Part shown: piece by piece, positions 31,434 to 37,840 of the stretch
Position numbering within the stretch: the first letter of the stretch is position 1
Layout: each line of letters opens with the position of its first letter
DNA from: Candidatus Peregrinibacteria bacterium
GTDB lineage: Bacteria; Patescibacteriota; Gracilibacteria; UBA1369; GCA-2718715
Assembly (NCBI GenBank): GCA_014240275.1
Contig: JAAZXH010000024.1
Coordinates: 1-41,257 of the forward strand
Length of the DNA stretch: 41,257 nt
Direction of reading: 5' to 3'
Made by a program: the position numbers and the translations under genes
Notes under the pieces: model-generated
The model's database searches: none
Seen by the model: the letters and a program-made list of their open reading frames with translations, nothing else
What the model was told of the DNA's origin: nothing

Positions 31434-33313
31434 AATATTTTAAAAACTTAATCCAAAATTATAAGCGAATGCGCTATATAAAAACTGAAATTCACATTTT
31501 TGAAATAGTTTTATTGATCATTGTAGTTTTAAACTTTAGTATTTATCAATTCTTCCAATTTCAAGACGTTGCAGGCCGACTACAATCCATTAAGCAGCAA
31601 ATTATCAGTACAGATAAAATGTCTTTAGCTAATCAAGAAGTTTTACAAGGTTTACTTTCCGATAGTTTTACAGTTTATACCCAGCTTAAACCACTATTAC
31701 CTAGCAGTTTAGAGTTCCAACGTTTAAAAAATAATTTAGAACTAAGCCACCAAAGCCTACAAAACCTACTACCAAAACTGACATCTTTAAAGGCTAGCGA
31801 TTTTGTTGACATGGTTGCATTTAAAGATTTACATTTAACTTTATCTGCGGTTAATGAATTAGATTTTCAGTTAAAAAACCTTAATCAAAGTTTTCAAGAC
31901 ATACCTAAATCTCAGGTACCAGGTTTGGCTCGGGATCAGTTCTTAGATTTACAAACCCAGTTTGCGCAACTGACAACTAAGGTTAATTTTATGATTGCAA
32001 ATTTAAATATGTTAGCTGATTTCAGTGGGTTAAAATCAACACATCGTTATTTAATTGCCATTCAAAATAACGCAGAAATTCGTCCTCTTGGTGGTTTTTC
32101 AGGCTTATTTGCCCTAGTTAACGTATCGGCTGGTCGCATTCAAGACATTGATGTAATAGATGTTTACCAGTTAGACGGACAGTATTTACCTCATATTAGT
32201 CCACCACCTAATCTGGCAGGATTGAATTCGAAAGTTTTTATTCGAGATCTAAATTACACATCAGATCCCAAAGTATATTTACAACTTTTGAAAAAAGAAT
32301 TAGAAACGCTAAAGTTCCCAAGCTTTGATACTGCCATTATTGTGAACCAGTCAGTTTTTCAAGATATACTAGAAATTCTTGGTGATCAAAAAATACCAGG
32401 TCGTAATTTTACCTTAACCCCGCAAAACTACTTCTATGCTTTAACCTTAATGATAGAATCCGAAAAAGCCTATATGTCTGATGATAAAATTGTGATTAAA
32501 AAAACCCTGGCTAACATTGTACCTGCCTTGCAGAACGTAGATAATTTAAACAGATTTATTAAGTTGGGTTTAAGAGAAATCCAGTCTAGTGACTTGCATA
32601 TCATAACAAGTAATTCAGATCATCAATCGATTCTACAAGAAATTAATGTAGCCTCTGATTTCAACTTTTATTCTAAAAAAAATCAGGAATCCTTTTTAGT
32701 TAGTTTAACTTCTGTGGGTGGCAATAAAACTGATCTAGACATGCAAACTGACATTTCACATAGTACCACATTAGCTAAAAATCAAACTCCTGCACACCAT
32801 CTTAAGTTAACGCGGACACATGGGTATAGTCTAAACCAAGAAGTTATAATCGACTCGATCGCAAGAAGAGTAGGTCTCTACCCGGTTTCAAATTCAGTTA
32901 AACATATTTTAATTAAAGGGGATAATAAAGTAGTTGCTAAAGTTCACCTTCCACTTGGGTCTAGTATTGAAAAAGTCTTAGTAGACTCAAGTCCCGTTAA
33001 GTTTGAAGCCGAAATTGAAGCAGAAACAAAATCAAAAGTTATTTACGTACCAATGACAACTAAGCCTTATCAAACCAATACTTTAGAGATCAAATATAAA
33101 TCTGGCTATAAGTTAAAAGGGTCAAAGGTTTTTGATTACAAGTTTCAGCACATCAAGACTCCAGGGCTTTTAAATGCCAATTATCAGAAGTCATTTCAAT
33201 TTGATGGACTTAGCAAAGAACGTTTATTTGTAGACGATCAAAGCTATTTTCAAAACATAGAAAATATAAGTCATGACGGCAATACAGAGTTTAATTTGAT
33301 CTTAAGTCACTAG
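31427..33313 (+). CDS. DUF4012 domain membrane protein
   Basis: 628 residues. A short cytosolic N-terminus with basic residues, a TM helix (about 25-44, FEIVLLIIVVLNFSIYQF), a coiled-coil-prone segment (50-190), and the DUF4012 core starting at HRYLIAIQNNAEIRPLGGFSGLFALVNVSAGRIQDIDV (about 205-242), where NNAE-RP-GGF is the family hallmark. Later beta-rich parts (600s) are extracellular. DUF4012 proteins occur in Actinobacteria and CPR bacteria, often near polysaccharide genes, and their activity is unknown. The stop overlaps convergent miaB by 12 bp. Confidence 0.85.
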   Translation: MVEYFKNLIQNYKRMRYIKTEIHIFEIVLLIIVVLNFSIYQFFQFQDVAGRLQSIKQQIISTDKMSLANQEVLQGLLSDSFTVYTQLKPLLPSSLEFQRLKNNLELSHQSLQNLLPKLTSLKASDFVDMVAFKDLHLTLSAVNELDFQLKNLNQSFQDIPKSQVPGLARDQFLDLQTQFAQLTTKVNFMIANLNMLADFSGLKSTHRYLIAIQNNAEIRPLGGFSGLFALVNVSAGRIQDIDVIDVYQLDGQYLPHISPPPNLAGLNSKVFIRDLNYTSDPKVYLQLLKKELETLKFPSFDTAIIVNQSVFQDILEILGDQKIPGRNFTLTPQNYFYALTLMIESEKAYMSDDKIVIKKTLANIVPALQNVDNLNRFIKLGLREIQSSDLHIITSNSDHQSILQEINVASDFNFYSKKNQESFLVSLTSVGGNKTDLDMQTDISHSTTLAKNQTPAHHLKLTRTHGYSLNQEVIIDSIARRVGLYPVSNSVKHILIKGDNKVVAKVHLPLGSSIEKVLVDSSPVKFEAEIEAETKSKVIYVPMTTKPYQTNTLEIKYKSGYKLKGSKVFDYKFQHIKTPGLLNANYQKSFQFDGLSKERLFVDDQSYFQNIENISHDGNTEFNLILSH

Positions 33314-34672
33314 CTCTCCTAGCAGTCGCCATTCTTGGCTCTCGGCTATTTTTACTGGCACAATTTGGCCAATTAAAGTTTCTGGGCCTTCTAAAATTAC
33401 CTCTTTGCCGTATTCGGTGCGTCCTTTCAGAATACCTGCTTTGCGCGATTTTCTTTCAAACAGGACTTGGACTGTTTTGCCTTCAAAATATTTATTTTTA
33501 ATTAGACTTGTTTCACGTAGTAGATCATTTAAACGGTGCCATCTTTGCTTTTTTACCTCAGCTGGTACGTCGTCTTTTTTCAATAAACCAGCTACCGTAC
33601 CTTTACGAGTAGAGTATTGGCTAATAAAGGCCAGGTCAAAGCAAACCTCCTTAAAAAGATCGTAAGTTTCTTGAAAATGTTCTTCGGTTTCTCCACAAAA
33701 CCCTACAATTATATCTGTTGATATAGCGCAGTTAGGCATACGGCTACGTATATAATGCACTATTTCCATAAATTTTTTGCTATCATAATTCCGGTTCATC
33801 TTTTTTAGTATATAGTCTGATCCTGATTGCAAAGGTAGGTGGATATAAGGCATTAAAGATTCTAAATCTGCAATTGCATCAACCACCTTATTGCACATAT
33901 CTTGCGGATGGGGAGATGTGAATCTTAAGCGTTTGAGACCTTCTATAGTATCAAGTTTCTTAAGTAGTTGTACAAAAGGGGGGGAGTCATAAGTGAATTT
34001 GTCAGACTTTTTATCGGCCCAACTTAAGCCGTAGCTATTTACATTTTGACCTAATAGTGTGATTTCTAAACCTCCATTGTCTACAATTTTTAAGGCTTCT
34101 TGGTAAATTTCATCAATTGGTCGGGATGTTTCACGGCCTCTAGAATAAGGTACTATGCAGTAAGTACAAAATTTGTCGCAACCCGTCATAATAGGCAGGT
34201 AGGCTTGAAATGGAGTTTTATATTTAGGTGCGATTTTAAAATAATTCCCTAAATCAGCTTCTTCTTGTTCTAAATCTGCAAAATCTGGATCTATATCCTT
34301 TAATAAACTTCCAATTTTAGGCAAGTCTTTAATAGGGAAGCAAATATCTAAATCAGGAATCTGTTTAAATAACTCATCTTTAGTTCGGCTCTTAGCAGAG
34401 CTTGTGATTCTTGTCATACAGCCTGTAATGCCGAGTTTAACCTTCGAGTTTCTAGCCTTCATCTTTGTAACTTTTTTCATATGCCCTAGAACTTTGTCTT
34501 CTGCCTTTTGTTTAATAGAGCATGTATTAAAAATTACCAATTCGGCCTCCTCTAAAGTATCTGTGTTTTGAAAACCATAATTTTCAAGTGCACTGGCTAA
34601 TCTTTCTGAGTCACTGTGGTTCATTTGACAACCAAATGTTAAGACATGGTATTTACCTTTAGTTCTAGACAT
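33302..34672 (-). CDS. miaB: tRNA-2-methylthio-N6-dimethylallyladenosine synthase MiaB
   Basis: 456 residues. The N-terminal UPF0004 domain supplies three Cys for one 4Fe-4S cluster (FGCQMN, FNTCSI, TGCMTR). The radical-SAM cluster motif is CDKFCTYC in MTGCDKFCTYCIVPYSRGRE. The C-terminal TRAM domain spans about 385-450. The YSRGRETSRP text favours MiaB over MtaB or RimO. It adds methylthio to i6A37 of tRNAs reading UNN codons, complementing TsaD's A37 modification of ANN readers. Confidence 0.94.
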   Translation of the reverse strand: MSRTKGKYHVLTFGCQMNHSDSERLASALENYGFQNTDTLEEAELVIFNTCSIKQKAEDKVLGHMKKVTKMKARNSKVKLGITGCMTRITSSAKSRTKDELFKQIPDLDICFPIKDLPKIGSLLKDIDPDFADLEQEEADLGNYFKIAPKYKTPFQAYLPIMTGCDKFCTYCIVPYSRGRETSRPIDEIYQEALKIVDNGGLEITLLGQNVNSYGLSWADKKSDKFTYDSPPFVQLLKKLDTIEGLKRLRFTSPHPQDMCNKVVDAIADLESLMPYIHLPLQSGSDYILKKMNRNYDSKKFMEIVHYIRSRMPNCAISTDIIVGFCGETEEHFQETYDLFKEVCFDLAFISQYSTRKGTVAGLLKKDDVPAEVKKQRWHRLNDLLRETSLIKNKYFEGKTVQVLFERKSRKAGILKGRTEYGKEVILEGPETLIGQIVPVKIAESQEWRLLGELVT

Positions 34673-34775
34673 TAAATAGCTTTAAAATACTGTAGAAACT
34701 CTAACATATATAACTTCAGATATCAAGCTTAATCGCAGTTAGTCGTCAATTTAAGGTTGTGGCAAGAAGTAGTGT
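34673..34775. other. Gap between miaB and the candidate RNA
   Basis: About 100 bp upstream of miaB with no open frame, no tRNA signature and no strong repeat. A miaB promoter should be here on the minus strand, but I see only AT-rich, ambiguous -10 candidates. Confidence 0.4.
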
Positions 34776-34804
34776 TTGTATAAAGTAAAATAAGGGTGTA
34801 TAGT
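34776..34804 (+). promoter_or_regulatory. Candidate promoter of the structured RNA
   Basis: TTGTAT (34776-34781), exactly 17 bp, TATAGT (34799-34804); predicted +1 near 34811. An alternative is TTGTGG (34757-34762), 16 bp, TATAAA (34779-34784). Confidence 0.45.
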
Positions 34805-34810
34805 AATATG

Positions 34811-35269
34811 AAGATCAAAGATAAAGAAAGTTCATTAACATAACATTTGTAAGAAACTTATTTTTCAAACAAAGCCAAAGGATTGGCAGAAAAGTGATCA
34901 GGTGCTAAGGCCTACCTTAAATGGCCCCCTCTAAGGCTAAAGCCAAAGAGCCGAGGGAAAAATGAAATAGTGTTTTCCCTTCCTCTTTTGCTTTATGATG
35001 AAGCTAAGCCTAACTAACTTAGTTTCGAAACCCAAATTGTCAATATTTAGTTCGCGCTAAATGACACAGCTTGGTGTACCACTTCTATTGACCACCATAT
35101 CATAGCAGATGATGCACATTTTATCAAGCGGTCCGAGGTAAGACTAAAAACTCACCAAAGTACAGCAAAAGATAGGTAAGTAGTTACTACCCTCGACAGT
35201 CTTTCTAAGATAACTTATTCACGGAAAATCATACTTCCGTCGAATGATCTCAGAAAGATTGTCTTTTTT
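34811..35269 (+). ncRNA. Unidentified structured non-coding RNA, about 460 nt
   Basis: A non-coding stretch in a genome that otherwise leaves almost no gaps. Visible plus-strand hairpins: GCCAA/TTGGC (34874-34887), TAAGG/CCTTA (34906-34919), GGC/GCC (34935-34944), AGGGAAAA/TTTTCCCT (34954-34980), CTAAG/CTTAG (35004-35022), ATTTAG/CTAAAT (35045-35062), TGGTG/CACCA (35072-35097), ATCAT/ATGAT (35099-35113), and a longer-range CGAGG/CCTCG pairing (35134-35138 with 35191-35195). It ends in a 12-bp hairpin plus U-tract and is preceded by a promoter-like pair. I do not see RNase P, tmRNA, SRP, 6S or group I/II intron signatures. The strand is set by the terminator. Confidence 0.5.
35195..35269 (+). 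terminator. Intrinsic terminator of the structured RNA
   Basis: Outer stem GACAGTCTTTCT (35195-35206) with AGAAAGATTGTC (35252-35263), 12 bp including one G-U, enclosing an inner hairpin ACGGAA/TTCCGT (35221-35240), followed directly by TTTTTT (35264-35269). Confidence 0.75.
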
Positions 35270-35293
35270 ATTTACATTTTTATTTTATTATGT

Positions 35294-35299
35294 TATAAT
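35294..35299 (+). promoter_or_regulatory. -10 box of the 48-residue membrane peptide gene
   Basis: TATAAT after the upstream terminator; predicted +1 near 35306, a leader of about 14 nt to the ATG at 35320. The region upstream is nearly pure A/T and no -35 stands out. Confidence 0.5.
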
Positions 35300-35319
35300 T
35301 TATAAATATAAAAGAAACT

Positions 35320-35466
35320 ATGTCAGGTTTAAACCGAGAAAAAAAACGAATTATTGTGGCAATTGCGCTTGTTTTATGTTTGTCTTCAGCAAGTTTGATT
35401 GTCTTCCAAAACCAAGCATCTAGTGTAACTAAGGCCTCTTCTATTCACGCCCCGATTATCCCTTAA
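35320..35466 (+). CDS. 48-residue membrane peptide
   Basis: Starts MSGLNREKKR, then a hydrophobic helix (about 11-29, IIVAIALVLCLSSASLIVF) and a short polar tail ending in SIHAPIIP. It reads as a signal anchor with a 19-residue extracytoplasmic tail. It follows a terminator and its own TATAAT box, and the stop overlaps the leuS stop on the other strand by 11 bp. The orderly basic-hydrophobic-polar pattern argues for a real gene, but no homologue is recognised. Confidence 0.5.
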   Translation: MSGLNREKKRIIVAIALVLCLSSASLIVFQNQASSVTKASSIHAPIIP

Positions 35467-37840
35467 CAACAAAACTTACAATTTTTCCTGGTACAAAGAT
35501 AGTTTTTACTACTTCTTTGCCTTCTAGGTATTTTGCAATTTCAGGTCTTTGGCTCACATTAGCTATAATAGACTCTTTTTCGGCGGCAGTATCAAATTCT
35601 AAACTGGCACGCATTTTACCATTCACCTGAATAGCGTATACACAAGTATTAGAAACTAAGGCCGATTTGTCGACTTCTTGGAATTGACTCAAAAAGATAG
35701 ATTCGGTTTTACCTAGTAGTTCATGCCATGCATGTTCTGCTAGGTGAGGGGCTAGGGGAGCCAAGATTTGGATTAAACTTTCTAGTCCGTTTTGCTCAGC
35801 GCCATGCTTTGCGATAAAGTTATAAAACTCCATACAAGCCGCCATTACAGTATTAAATTGAAAGTTCTCATAGTCTTTTATAGACTTTTCAAGCAAACTA
35901 TTGAGCTCTCGCTTATAATCTGATTCTTTTGTAGCATCTAGCTCTTTTGGGTTTTCGTAAAACCGCAGTAGTTTGTCTCTAAATCTTAAGACTCCAATGA
36001 TACCTTCATCTGAAAAGTCTCCACCTTCTGTAAAAGGGCCTTGGAACATCATATACATTCTAAAAACATCAGCTCCAAATTTATTCACATAATCATCGGG
36101 GTTTACCACGTTACCTTTAGATTTACTCATTTTAGCACCATCTTTGGTAATTATACCTTGGTGAATTAAACGTTTTACTGGTTCATTGCATGTAAATAAG
36201 CCTTGGTCACGTAAAAATTTATGAATAAAACGCACATATAAAAGGTGCATACAGGCGTGCTCTGCACCCCCCATATAAAGATCAACTGGAATTAATTTTT
36301 GCATTTGTTCTTCAGTTGCAAGCTGTGAAGGATCCGCATGGTTTGCATATCGGTTAAGGTAAAAGCTAGAACACACAAATGCATCAAGCGTATCGAATTC
36401 TGCTCTATAGCCGGGTCCAAAAATCTTTTCTACATTAGCTTGCAGTTGTTTTGAGCTTCCAAGTGGAGGAACTCCAGTTGGCTTGTAGTCAACATCAGTC
36501 GGTAGTTCCCAAGGAAGATGTTCTTCTGGAATTGGAACCACTTGGCCTTCCGGATCATACACTATCGGAATCGGGCAGCCCCAGTATCTTTGGCGACCCA
36601 CACTCCAGTCTCGCAAACGATAGGTAGTTTGTAGCTCACCTTTATTCATAGCTTTCAGATCTGCAGAAATTGCAGTTATGGCCTCACTAGTATTCAAACC
36701 ATTATATTTGTCGGAATTAATTAGAGTTCCATGTTCTAATACTGGCAAATCTGAGTCAGACTGAATAACTTGAGAAATTGCTAATTTATATTTATTCGCA
36801 AAAATAAAATCTCTTGCGTCGTGAGCGGGTACTCCCATTACCGCACCAGTTCCATAGGTATAGATTACGTAGTCGGCTGTCCATACTGGAACTTTTTTGC
36901 CATTTAAGGGATTGGTCACATAGGCACCTGTAAATAAACCAGTTTTTTCTAATTCAGTGCTAGATCTATCAATTTCTGATTTTAAGGCCGTTTGATTTTG
37001 GTATTCACTGACTTGATCCATATGACTTTCAGGCACGATAGTTTTTAAAAGCGGATGTTCAGGGGCTAGTACAACGTATTCCACACCAAAAACAGTATCT
37101 ATGCGAGTTGTAAAACATTCAATTTCAAAGTTTTCACCTGCAAAGTTTATAACAGTACCCTGGCTTTTGCCGATCCAGTTTTTTTGCATAGTAATAGTTT
37201 TGGCAGGCCAGTTCAATTCTGAAAAATCTAATAAGTCTTCAGCGTAGTCAGTGATTTTGAAAAACCATTGTTTCATCATTTTCTTTTCTACCATTGCTCC
37301 TGAGCGTTCCGCGGTACCATCAGGTAAAATTTGCTCATTCGCAATTACAGTTTGGTCAACTGGATCCCAGTTTACCAAAGCTTCTTTTTGAAAGGCTAAA
37401 CCAGCTTTATGCAATTTTAAAAATAGCCACTGTGTCCATTTATAGTATTCTGGGCTAGAAGTGATCATCCGATATTTATCTTCAAACATACCACCAATAC
37501 CATCAATTTGTTCATTCATGATTTTAATGTTTTTGGCAGTACTATCTTGCGGTGCTATATTAGTTTTAATTGCAAAATTTTCAGCAGGTAAGCCAAAACT
37601 ATCGTAACCTAAGGGTTGAAAAACATTGAACCCCTGCATTTTTTTAAACCTACCAAATATATCAATTCCTGAGTAATTAAACCAGTGCCCAATGTGCAAT
37701 CGACTCCCAGAAGGGTAAGGGAACATTACCAAATTGTAAAAAGCATTATCTAAGTTTTGAGGATCAAAAGCCAGTTTTGGGTTTGATCGCCAGGCAGCTT
37801 GCCACTTAGACTCAATACCCTGAAAATCATAAGATTGCAT
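35456..37840 (-). CDS. leuS: Leucyl-tRNA synthetase
   Basis: 794 residues. HIGH motif in FPYPSGSRLHIGHWFNYSGI (about 41-60), GYDSFGLPAENFA, the CP1 editing domain with FTTRIDTVFGVEYVVLAPEHP and the Asp-rich GVPAHDARDFIFA, YWGCPIPIVY, and KMSKSKGNVVNPDDY. The anticodon-binding helical domain and short C-terminal extension follow (ending KTIFVPGKIVSFVVKG). Somewhat shorter than E. coli (860). It comes last in an operon-like run after rsmI and three pseudopilins, 41 bp downstream of the last pilin gene. Confidence 0.96.
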   Translation of the reverse strand: MQSYDFQGIESKWQAAWRSNPKLAFDPQNLDNAFYNLVMFPYPSGSRLHIGHWFNYSGIDIFGRFKKMQGFNVFQPLGYDSFGLPAENFAIKTNIAPQDSTAKNIKIMNEQIDGIGGMFEDKYRMITSSPEYYKWTQWLFLKLHKAGLAFQKEALVNWDPVDQTVIANEQILPDGTAERSGAMVEKKMMKQWFFKITDYAEDLLDFSELNWPAKTITMQKNWIGKSQGTVINFAGENFEIECFTTRIDTVFGVEYVVLAPEHPLLKTIVPESHMDQVSEYQNQTALKSEIDRSSTELEKTGLFTGAYVTNPLNGKKVPVWTADYVIYTYGTGAVMGVPAHDARDFIFANKYKLAISQVIQSDSDLPVLEHGTLINSDKYNGLNTSEAITAISADLKAMNKGELQTTYRLRDWSVGRQRYWGCPIPIVYDPEGQVVPIPEEHLPWELPTDVDYKPTGVPPLGSSKQLQANVEKIFGPGYRAEFDTLDAFVCSSFYLNRYANHADPSQLATEEQMQKLIPVDLYMGGAEHACMHLLYVRFIHKFLRDQGLFTCNEPVKRLIHQGIITKDGAKMSKSKGNVVNPDDYVNKFGADVFRMYMMFQGPFTEGGDFSDEGIIGVLRFRDKLLRFYENPKELDATKESDYKRELNSLLEKSIKDYENFQFNTVMAACMEFYNFIAKHGAEQNGLESLIQILAPLAPHLAEHAWHELLGKTESIFLSQFQEVDKSALVSNTCVYAIQVNGKMRASLEFDTAAEKESIIANVSQRPEIAKYLEGKEVVKTIFVPGKIVSFVVKG

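Follow-up and report, generated by a model that had tools for sequence, protein, structure and literature searches.

The gap between miaB and leuS in the window, as the whole 41,257-nucleotide stretch of DNA analysed is called here, carries a gene that can be assigned, at roughly three chances in four, to a new family of structured RNAs, trans-acting and of the housekeeping type, in Peribacteria and related Patescibacteria, with a proposed ribonucleoprotein (RNP) role and rRNA-like transcription. The evidence for the RNA is comparative throughout, and on that basis the existence of the family is almost certain. An earlier note, written from the sequence of the window, had put forward a candidate novel structured RNA at this place, a proposal now supported by negative Rfam searches and by covariation in homologues. 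The spread through the order and beyond, the pseudoknot, the kissing loop and the usual boxA-like element had been unseen from the sequence alone.

The miaB–leuS gap of 783 bp is bounded by the start of miaB (33302-34672, minus strand) at 34672 and by the stop of leuS (35456-37840, minus strand) at 35456, and contains no long frames. The RNA gene, including promoter and terminator, occupies window positions 34776-35269 of the plus strand, the strand of all the RNA features described below, between the divergent miaB and the convergent leuS. The 647 bp described earlier as lacking coding potential correspond to 34673-35319, ahead of a 48-aa ORF. No open stretch across the predicted transcript exceeds 42 codons, each frame being broken by 6-16 stops, and the homologues show no eroded protein gene. 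The plus strand is strongly structured over a stretch of about 455 nt (MFE -117.3 kcal/mol, z -5.69), with none of 100 shuffles as strong, which agrees with the structured plus strand of the earlier note; folding of the minus strand is weaker (z -3.87). The genome assembly that contains the window (G000) is 79% complete and lacks a 16S rRNA gene.

The predicted core of about 210 nt is closed by P1, contains P2, P3/P3b and an H-type pseudoknot, and is locked by a kiss between the loops of P2 and P5. P1 pairs 34986-34996 with 35160-35170 and includes a conserved internal loop (UGUGAUGG/CCRAAGC); among 68 homologues, 86.9% and 99.0% of cells are paired in its two helix parts, with two-sided change at 8 of 10 pairs. 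The loop of the P2 hairpin (35000-35026; loop 35011-35015, UAACU) kisses 35182-35186 (AGUUA) of the P5 hairpin (35175-35191, GGUA/UACC), and across homologues the P2 loop consensus UGACYA is complementary to the P5 loop, URGUCA. Two-sided change at the two modelled pairs of P5 is seen in 26 and 28 sequences. The P3/P3b element spans 35069-35129 and has a variable tip; P3 (35069-35073/35125-35129) is paired in 96.1% of cells and P3b (35074-35076/35117-35119) in 99.0%, each with two-sided change at every pair. The H-type pseudoknot (35130-35157) consists of S1 (35130-35133/35142-35145), where two-sided change affects four of four pairs, and S2 (35137-35139/35154-35156), with an A-rich crossing loop and the consensus GGUCN-UGGC-NGACU-AAAAC-GCCA. 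The features by which members of the family are recognised, namely the P1-P2-P3-S1 core, S2 and the P2–P5 kiss, are all found in the window. A longer-range CGAGG/CCTCG pairing proposed in the earlier note does exist as letters (35134-35138 with 35191-35195), but it is unconserved in homologues and would clash with the conserved pseudoknot, and it was dropped; the long-range helix actually conserved is P1.

Alignment of the 68 homologues (A6) showed 92.0% of pair cells to be standard and two-sided change at 30 of 38 pairs. Cells with two-sided change number 433 against 120.4 +/- 13.3 after shuffling (0/500), and the covariation score is 0.499 against 0.209 +/- 0.007 shuffled and at most 0.104 with partners slid, although the fitting of A6 to the nested helices biases their counts upward, and the kinship of the sequences inflates the shuffle statistics. 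S2 and the kiss both lie outside the search model. The last pair of S2 is CG in 24, UA in 20 and AU in 7 sequences, and the last pair of the kiss is CG in 19 and UA in 19 of the aligned homologues. A plain MAFFT alignment (A5) shows such pair swaps as well. Since S2 and the kiss covary though unmodelled, and the same swaps occur in the plain alignment, the comparison puts it beyond doubt that selection acts on the RNA fold. The covariation in homologues is massive, and none of the outcomes by which the earlier note would have been refuted (a significant Rfam match to a known RNA, homologues devoid of covariation, or an eroded protein gene) was observed.

Relatives of miaB yielded three loci with common conserved blocks upstream of miaB (L010, L011 and L012). 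The closest relative among the genomes searched is G001 (contig CALQZM010000008.1, 'Candidatus Peribacteria'), identified as a true homologue in a BLAST search of the locus. Model R1, of 77 positions, was found at one place each in many genomes of the order; plain MAFFT alignment of 14 genomes from R1 (A5), with the structure assigned by eye, gave model R2, and model R3 was built from 50 sequences. At E <= 0.01, R2 matched 85 of the 353 genomes in the class. R3 matched 100 of the 353, about 3-4 being expected by chance at this limit, and these include 73 of the 89 genomes of the order. The remaining 27 comprise 15 genomes in family f24 and 12 others, among which matches weaker than about E 1e-4 are doubtful. 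In the phylum sample beyond the class no more than three matches appeared, all of them marginal (E 6.7e-4 to 3e-3). The conserved core of the window (34981-35191) scores 99.1 bits with R2 (E 1.4e-22) and 89.9 bits with R3 (E 6.1e-22), but it is the homologues and not these scores that constitute the evidence, because the window is in both training sets. Short BLAST matches in G012, G126 and G132:C2, which appear inside coding sequence, were attributed to chance, and the weak R1 matches in G117 and L129 were left out of account.

R3 has no match in any of the eight genomes of family f13 (G015, G026, G033, G040, G046, G051, G057 and G060), and the RNA therefore falls short of strict universality in the order. 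Some of these genomes are at 100% completeness yet without a match, and G015 has no RNase P match with RF00010 either. Many genomes hold two paralogues, in different neighbourhoods; in family f7 the second copies form a group separate from the first. Duplicate copies near each other occur in G145, G016:C2, G027:C1, G031:C7, G037:C13 and G086:C11. The two copies in G145:C35 (21469-21650 and 27143-27324) are identical in the aligned core columns, with equal scores, and look like a recent duplication.

The promoter at 34776-34804 consists of a -35 element TTGTAT (34776-34781), a 17-nt spacer and a -10 element TATAGT (34799-34804), as described in the earlier note, and places the predicted transcript start at about 34811. 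Taken alone it is at chance level, 6 of 20 shuffles scoring as high; across homologues, however, promoters at the matching place score a mean of 15.8 against 13.5 +/- 1.3 shuffled. The 12-bp terminator hairpin with U6 is likewise present: in P6, the intrinsic terminator (35195-35269), GACAGTCTTTCT (35195-35206) pairs with AGAAAGATTGTC (35252-35263) around an inner hairpin and is followed by U6 at 35264-35269. In most homologues a stem and a T-run of at least 5 lie 3' of the core. An own promoter and terminator, claimed for the window, are thus true of the family, with promoter scores above shuffles and terminators in most loci, and the length of about 460 nt predicted at the outset agrees with the 455-460 nt or so given by these ends.

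Near the 5' end of the transcript lies a boxA-like element, GTTCATTAACATA (34830-34842), of the same position and type as in homologues. The window copy is a weak match, equalled by 2 of 20 shuffles, while in many loci such an element stands between promoter and core, with a mean best score of 16.1 against 13.2 +/- 1.7 shuffled. The elements near the 5' end of the RNA read CYTTRAAAA/CYTTTAACA, as in the 16S leaders of the same lineage, and the 16S leaders of relatives have a similar boxA, for example TGTCCTTTAACATTTAG. In gammaproteobacteria the boxA consensus is GYTCTTTAANA, from a study whose own boxA survey left non-coding RNAs out of consideration (PMC5725501). The arrangement resembles the boxA system of rRNA leaders (NusB/S10 antitermination) in these elements and differs from it in that the RNA behind boxA is here non-ribosomal and stands alone. 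A boxA-like element also accompanies several of the order's tmRNA genes, among the tmRNA loci of relatives (L095, L096, L098 and L099), and is located in three loci 15-16 nt upstream of the tmRNA match (for example GGTTCTTTGAAAA and GGCTCTTTGAAAA); in having boxA just upstream, the tmRNA genes of some relatives are like the new RNA. These tmRNA loci suggest that boxA marks non-ribosomal stable RNA genes in the Peribacteria lineage, and the boxA link suggests Nus antitermination serving such RNAs there.

Neighbouring genes at 44 loci include Formyl_trans_N, F420_ligase, MscS, a DinG-like helicase, CarA, enolase, serine dehydratase, miaB and leuS, and their identity differs between families. As a rule the gene upstream is divergent, and in many cases the one downstream is convergent; no downstream gene is common to the 44 loci examined as an operon. 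Because the neighbours vary and no operon is shared, the RNA very probably acts in trans. Combined with the promoter, terminator and boxA signals, the varied neighbours point to a trans-acting RNA with rRNA-like transcription signals.

In the mechanism proposed for this RNA, NusB/S10 would bind boxA, and RNA polymerase would in consequence escape Rho termination, as it does on rRNA, while reading through the long, untranslated and highly folded transcript. A 5' hairpin, P0, would form first and shelter the 5' strand of P1; as the 3' strand of P1 emerges, P1 would displace P0, and the pseudoknot and kiss would lock the core. The folded core would then be the RNA part of a stable RNP, a ribozyme being less likely. 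By analogy, the features match those of RNAs that serve as RNP cores or ribozymes, and the odds of a stable RNP role are put at about even. A more ambitious composite is tentative and less likely than not. In it, one RNA with two conserved, mutually exclusive folds (P0, or the P1 core with its kiss) and Nus-modified transcription would act in trans across the lineage, either as a regulated RNP or as a ribozyme, and would join tmRNA and RNase P among the large housekeeping RNAs of Patescibacteria.

The P0 hairpin (34937-34996) pairs 34937-34962 with 34972-34996 and overlaps the 5' strand of P1, so that the two are mutually exclusive. This geometry raises the possibility of a trans-acting RNA switch, in which a ligand, protein or partner RNA would pick P0 or P1 and turn the core on or off. 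In most homologues the sequence immediately 5' of the core can fold into a long P0 hairpin that takes in the P1 5' strand, and P0 is strong relative to shuffled upstreams (mean z -3.67), as a switch would have it. A stricter control is less favourable, with 10.0 P1-strand bases paired against 9.7 in shuffled upstreams, and for the 14-nt P1 strand alone the signal is modest (mean z -1.16, with 12 of 44 loci beyond -2). An anchored permutation of the P0 extension between own and other loci indicated that the complement of the P1 strand is locus-specific (z -5.2, p < 2e-4, related loci not being independent), which gave back moderate support for P0/P1 competition, although several loci are without such a complement. 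In the window RNA a mere 0.9 kcal/mol separates the P0 state from the P1 state with pseudoknots uncounted, and in the computed folding of the nascent RNA P0 folds first; on these models an exchange from P0 to P1 is likely to take place. A simple folding intermediate or processing stem fits the same data, however, and a switch is regarded as doubtful.

Two mutually exclusive helices could also be the alternative states of a cis-regulatory, riboswitch-like leader of a neighbouring gene, and a small ORF does lie downstream on the same strand in G000 and G001. Against such a leader, the upstream gene is usually divergent and the downstream gene often convergent, with identities that vary by family, a terminator lies 3' of the core in most loci, and the small ORF occurs only in these two close relatives and has its own promoter. 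A leader function is considered highly unlikely.

In its size, its pseudoknots, its A-rich crossing loop and its near-ubiquity across the order, the RNA resembles known housekeeping RNAs, and the gene could in principle be a diverged tmRNA, RNase P RNA, 6S RNA or SRP RNA overlooked by standard models. The Rfam 15 scan covered the whole window, the gap and about 30 homologous loci. No family reached the gathering threshold in the whole window or in any homologous locus scanned, and nothing in the gap was better than E 0.3, in accordance with the failure of the earlier note to place the RNA among standard housekeeping RNAs by eye. Sub-threshold matches (E 0.01-10: mir-3167, csRNA, RsmY, anti-hemB, Ysr49 and Phe_leader) were judged to be chance, and a sub-threshold match of the tmRNA model in L152 (45 bits) falls at 1095-1164, away from the core, which occupies 1501-1694. 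The locus has no match to tmRNA (RF00023) or RNase P RNA (RF00010), and ARAGORN found no tRNA-like domain in the window. A full-length tmRNA (G000:C4:13510-13944) and an RNase P RNA (G000:C6:62006-62346, 202 bits) are encoded elsewhere in G000, and these separate genes refute both identities. For 6S RNA (RF00013) there was no match at the locus or homologues, nor in G000-G003, an absence that would favour a disguised 6S RNA; the 6S-like matches of G004 and G006, however, are at other places than the new RNA. No bacterial SRP model matched the locus or homologues in the scan of these loci. A diverged known RNA is accordingly judged very improbable.

tmRNA is of similar length and has H-type pseudoknots with A-rich loops. 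The new RNA is like it in length and in its H-type pseudoknot and differs in that ARAGORN found no tRNA-like domain. Closest in kind, though not in kin, is raiA/ModT, a stand-alone bacterial RNA that acts in trans, is widely conserved and has two pseudoknots (PMC11706538), all traits that the new RNA appears to echo. That RNA is known from Bacillota and Actinobacteriota, whereas the new RNA comes from Patescibacteria, has no RF03072 match at the locus or homologues, and possesses a loop–loop kiss and usually a boxA. OLE, GOLLD and ROOL are large, ornate bacterial RNAs (PMC12286853); the new RNA is smaller, has no match to their models and is absent from the phage, plasmid and viral records searched. 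No such RNA was found in the literature on Patescibacteria, Gracilibacteria, Peribacteria and Peregrinibacteria, in a search that lay outside most subscription papers and preprints. The RNA is new at the level of the family, and its broad kind, the large structured bacterial RNA, already has company.

Membership of a mobile element (intron, transposon guide RNA, retron or phage RNA) might account for the presence, in many species, of two or three copies in one genome, the nearby copies in G016, G027, G031 and G037 and the two equal-scoring copies in G145, but is most improbable with housekeeping neighbours conserved by family, no match to the core pattern in viral contigs or to the locus in phage and plasmid records, and no partner protein gene that keeps company with the RNA.

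Order-wide large structured RNAs are rare, and most of them have proved to act as ribozymes, as RNP cores or as global regulators. The genomes of Patescibacteria are very small, and hardly any member has been cultured. That most genomes of such an order retain this RNA, often in duplicate, points to a basic process unseen in model bacteria, and the new RNA probably does a basic job in the cell. The coordinates, model and pairings given here define the family well enough for its expression, partner and fold to be tested directly.

The 48-aa ORF (35320-35466, plus strand) lies between the RNA and leuS and encodes an N-terminal hydrophobic stretch (MSGLNREKK...TKASSIHAPIIP). Its promoter, at 35271-35299, reads TTTACA-N17-TATAAT (11/12). 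At the matching place in G001 (L011) there is a 36%-identical peptide, and the two have the common ending TKASSIHA..IP.
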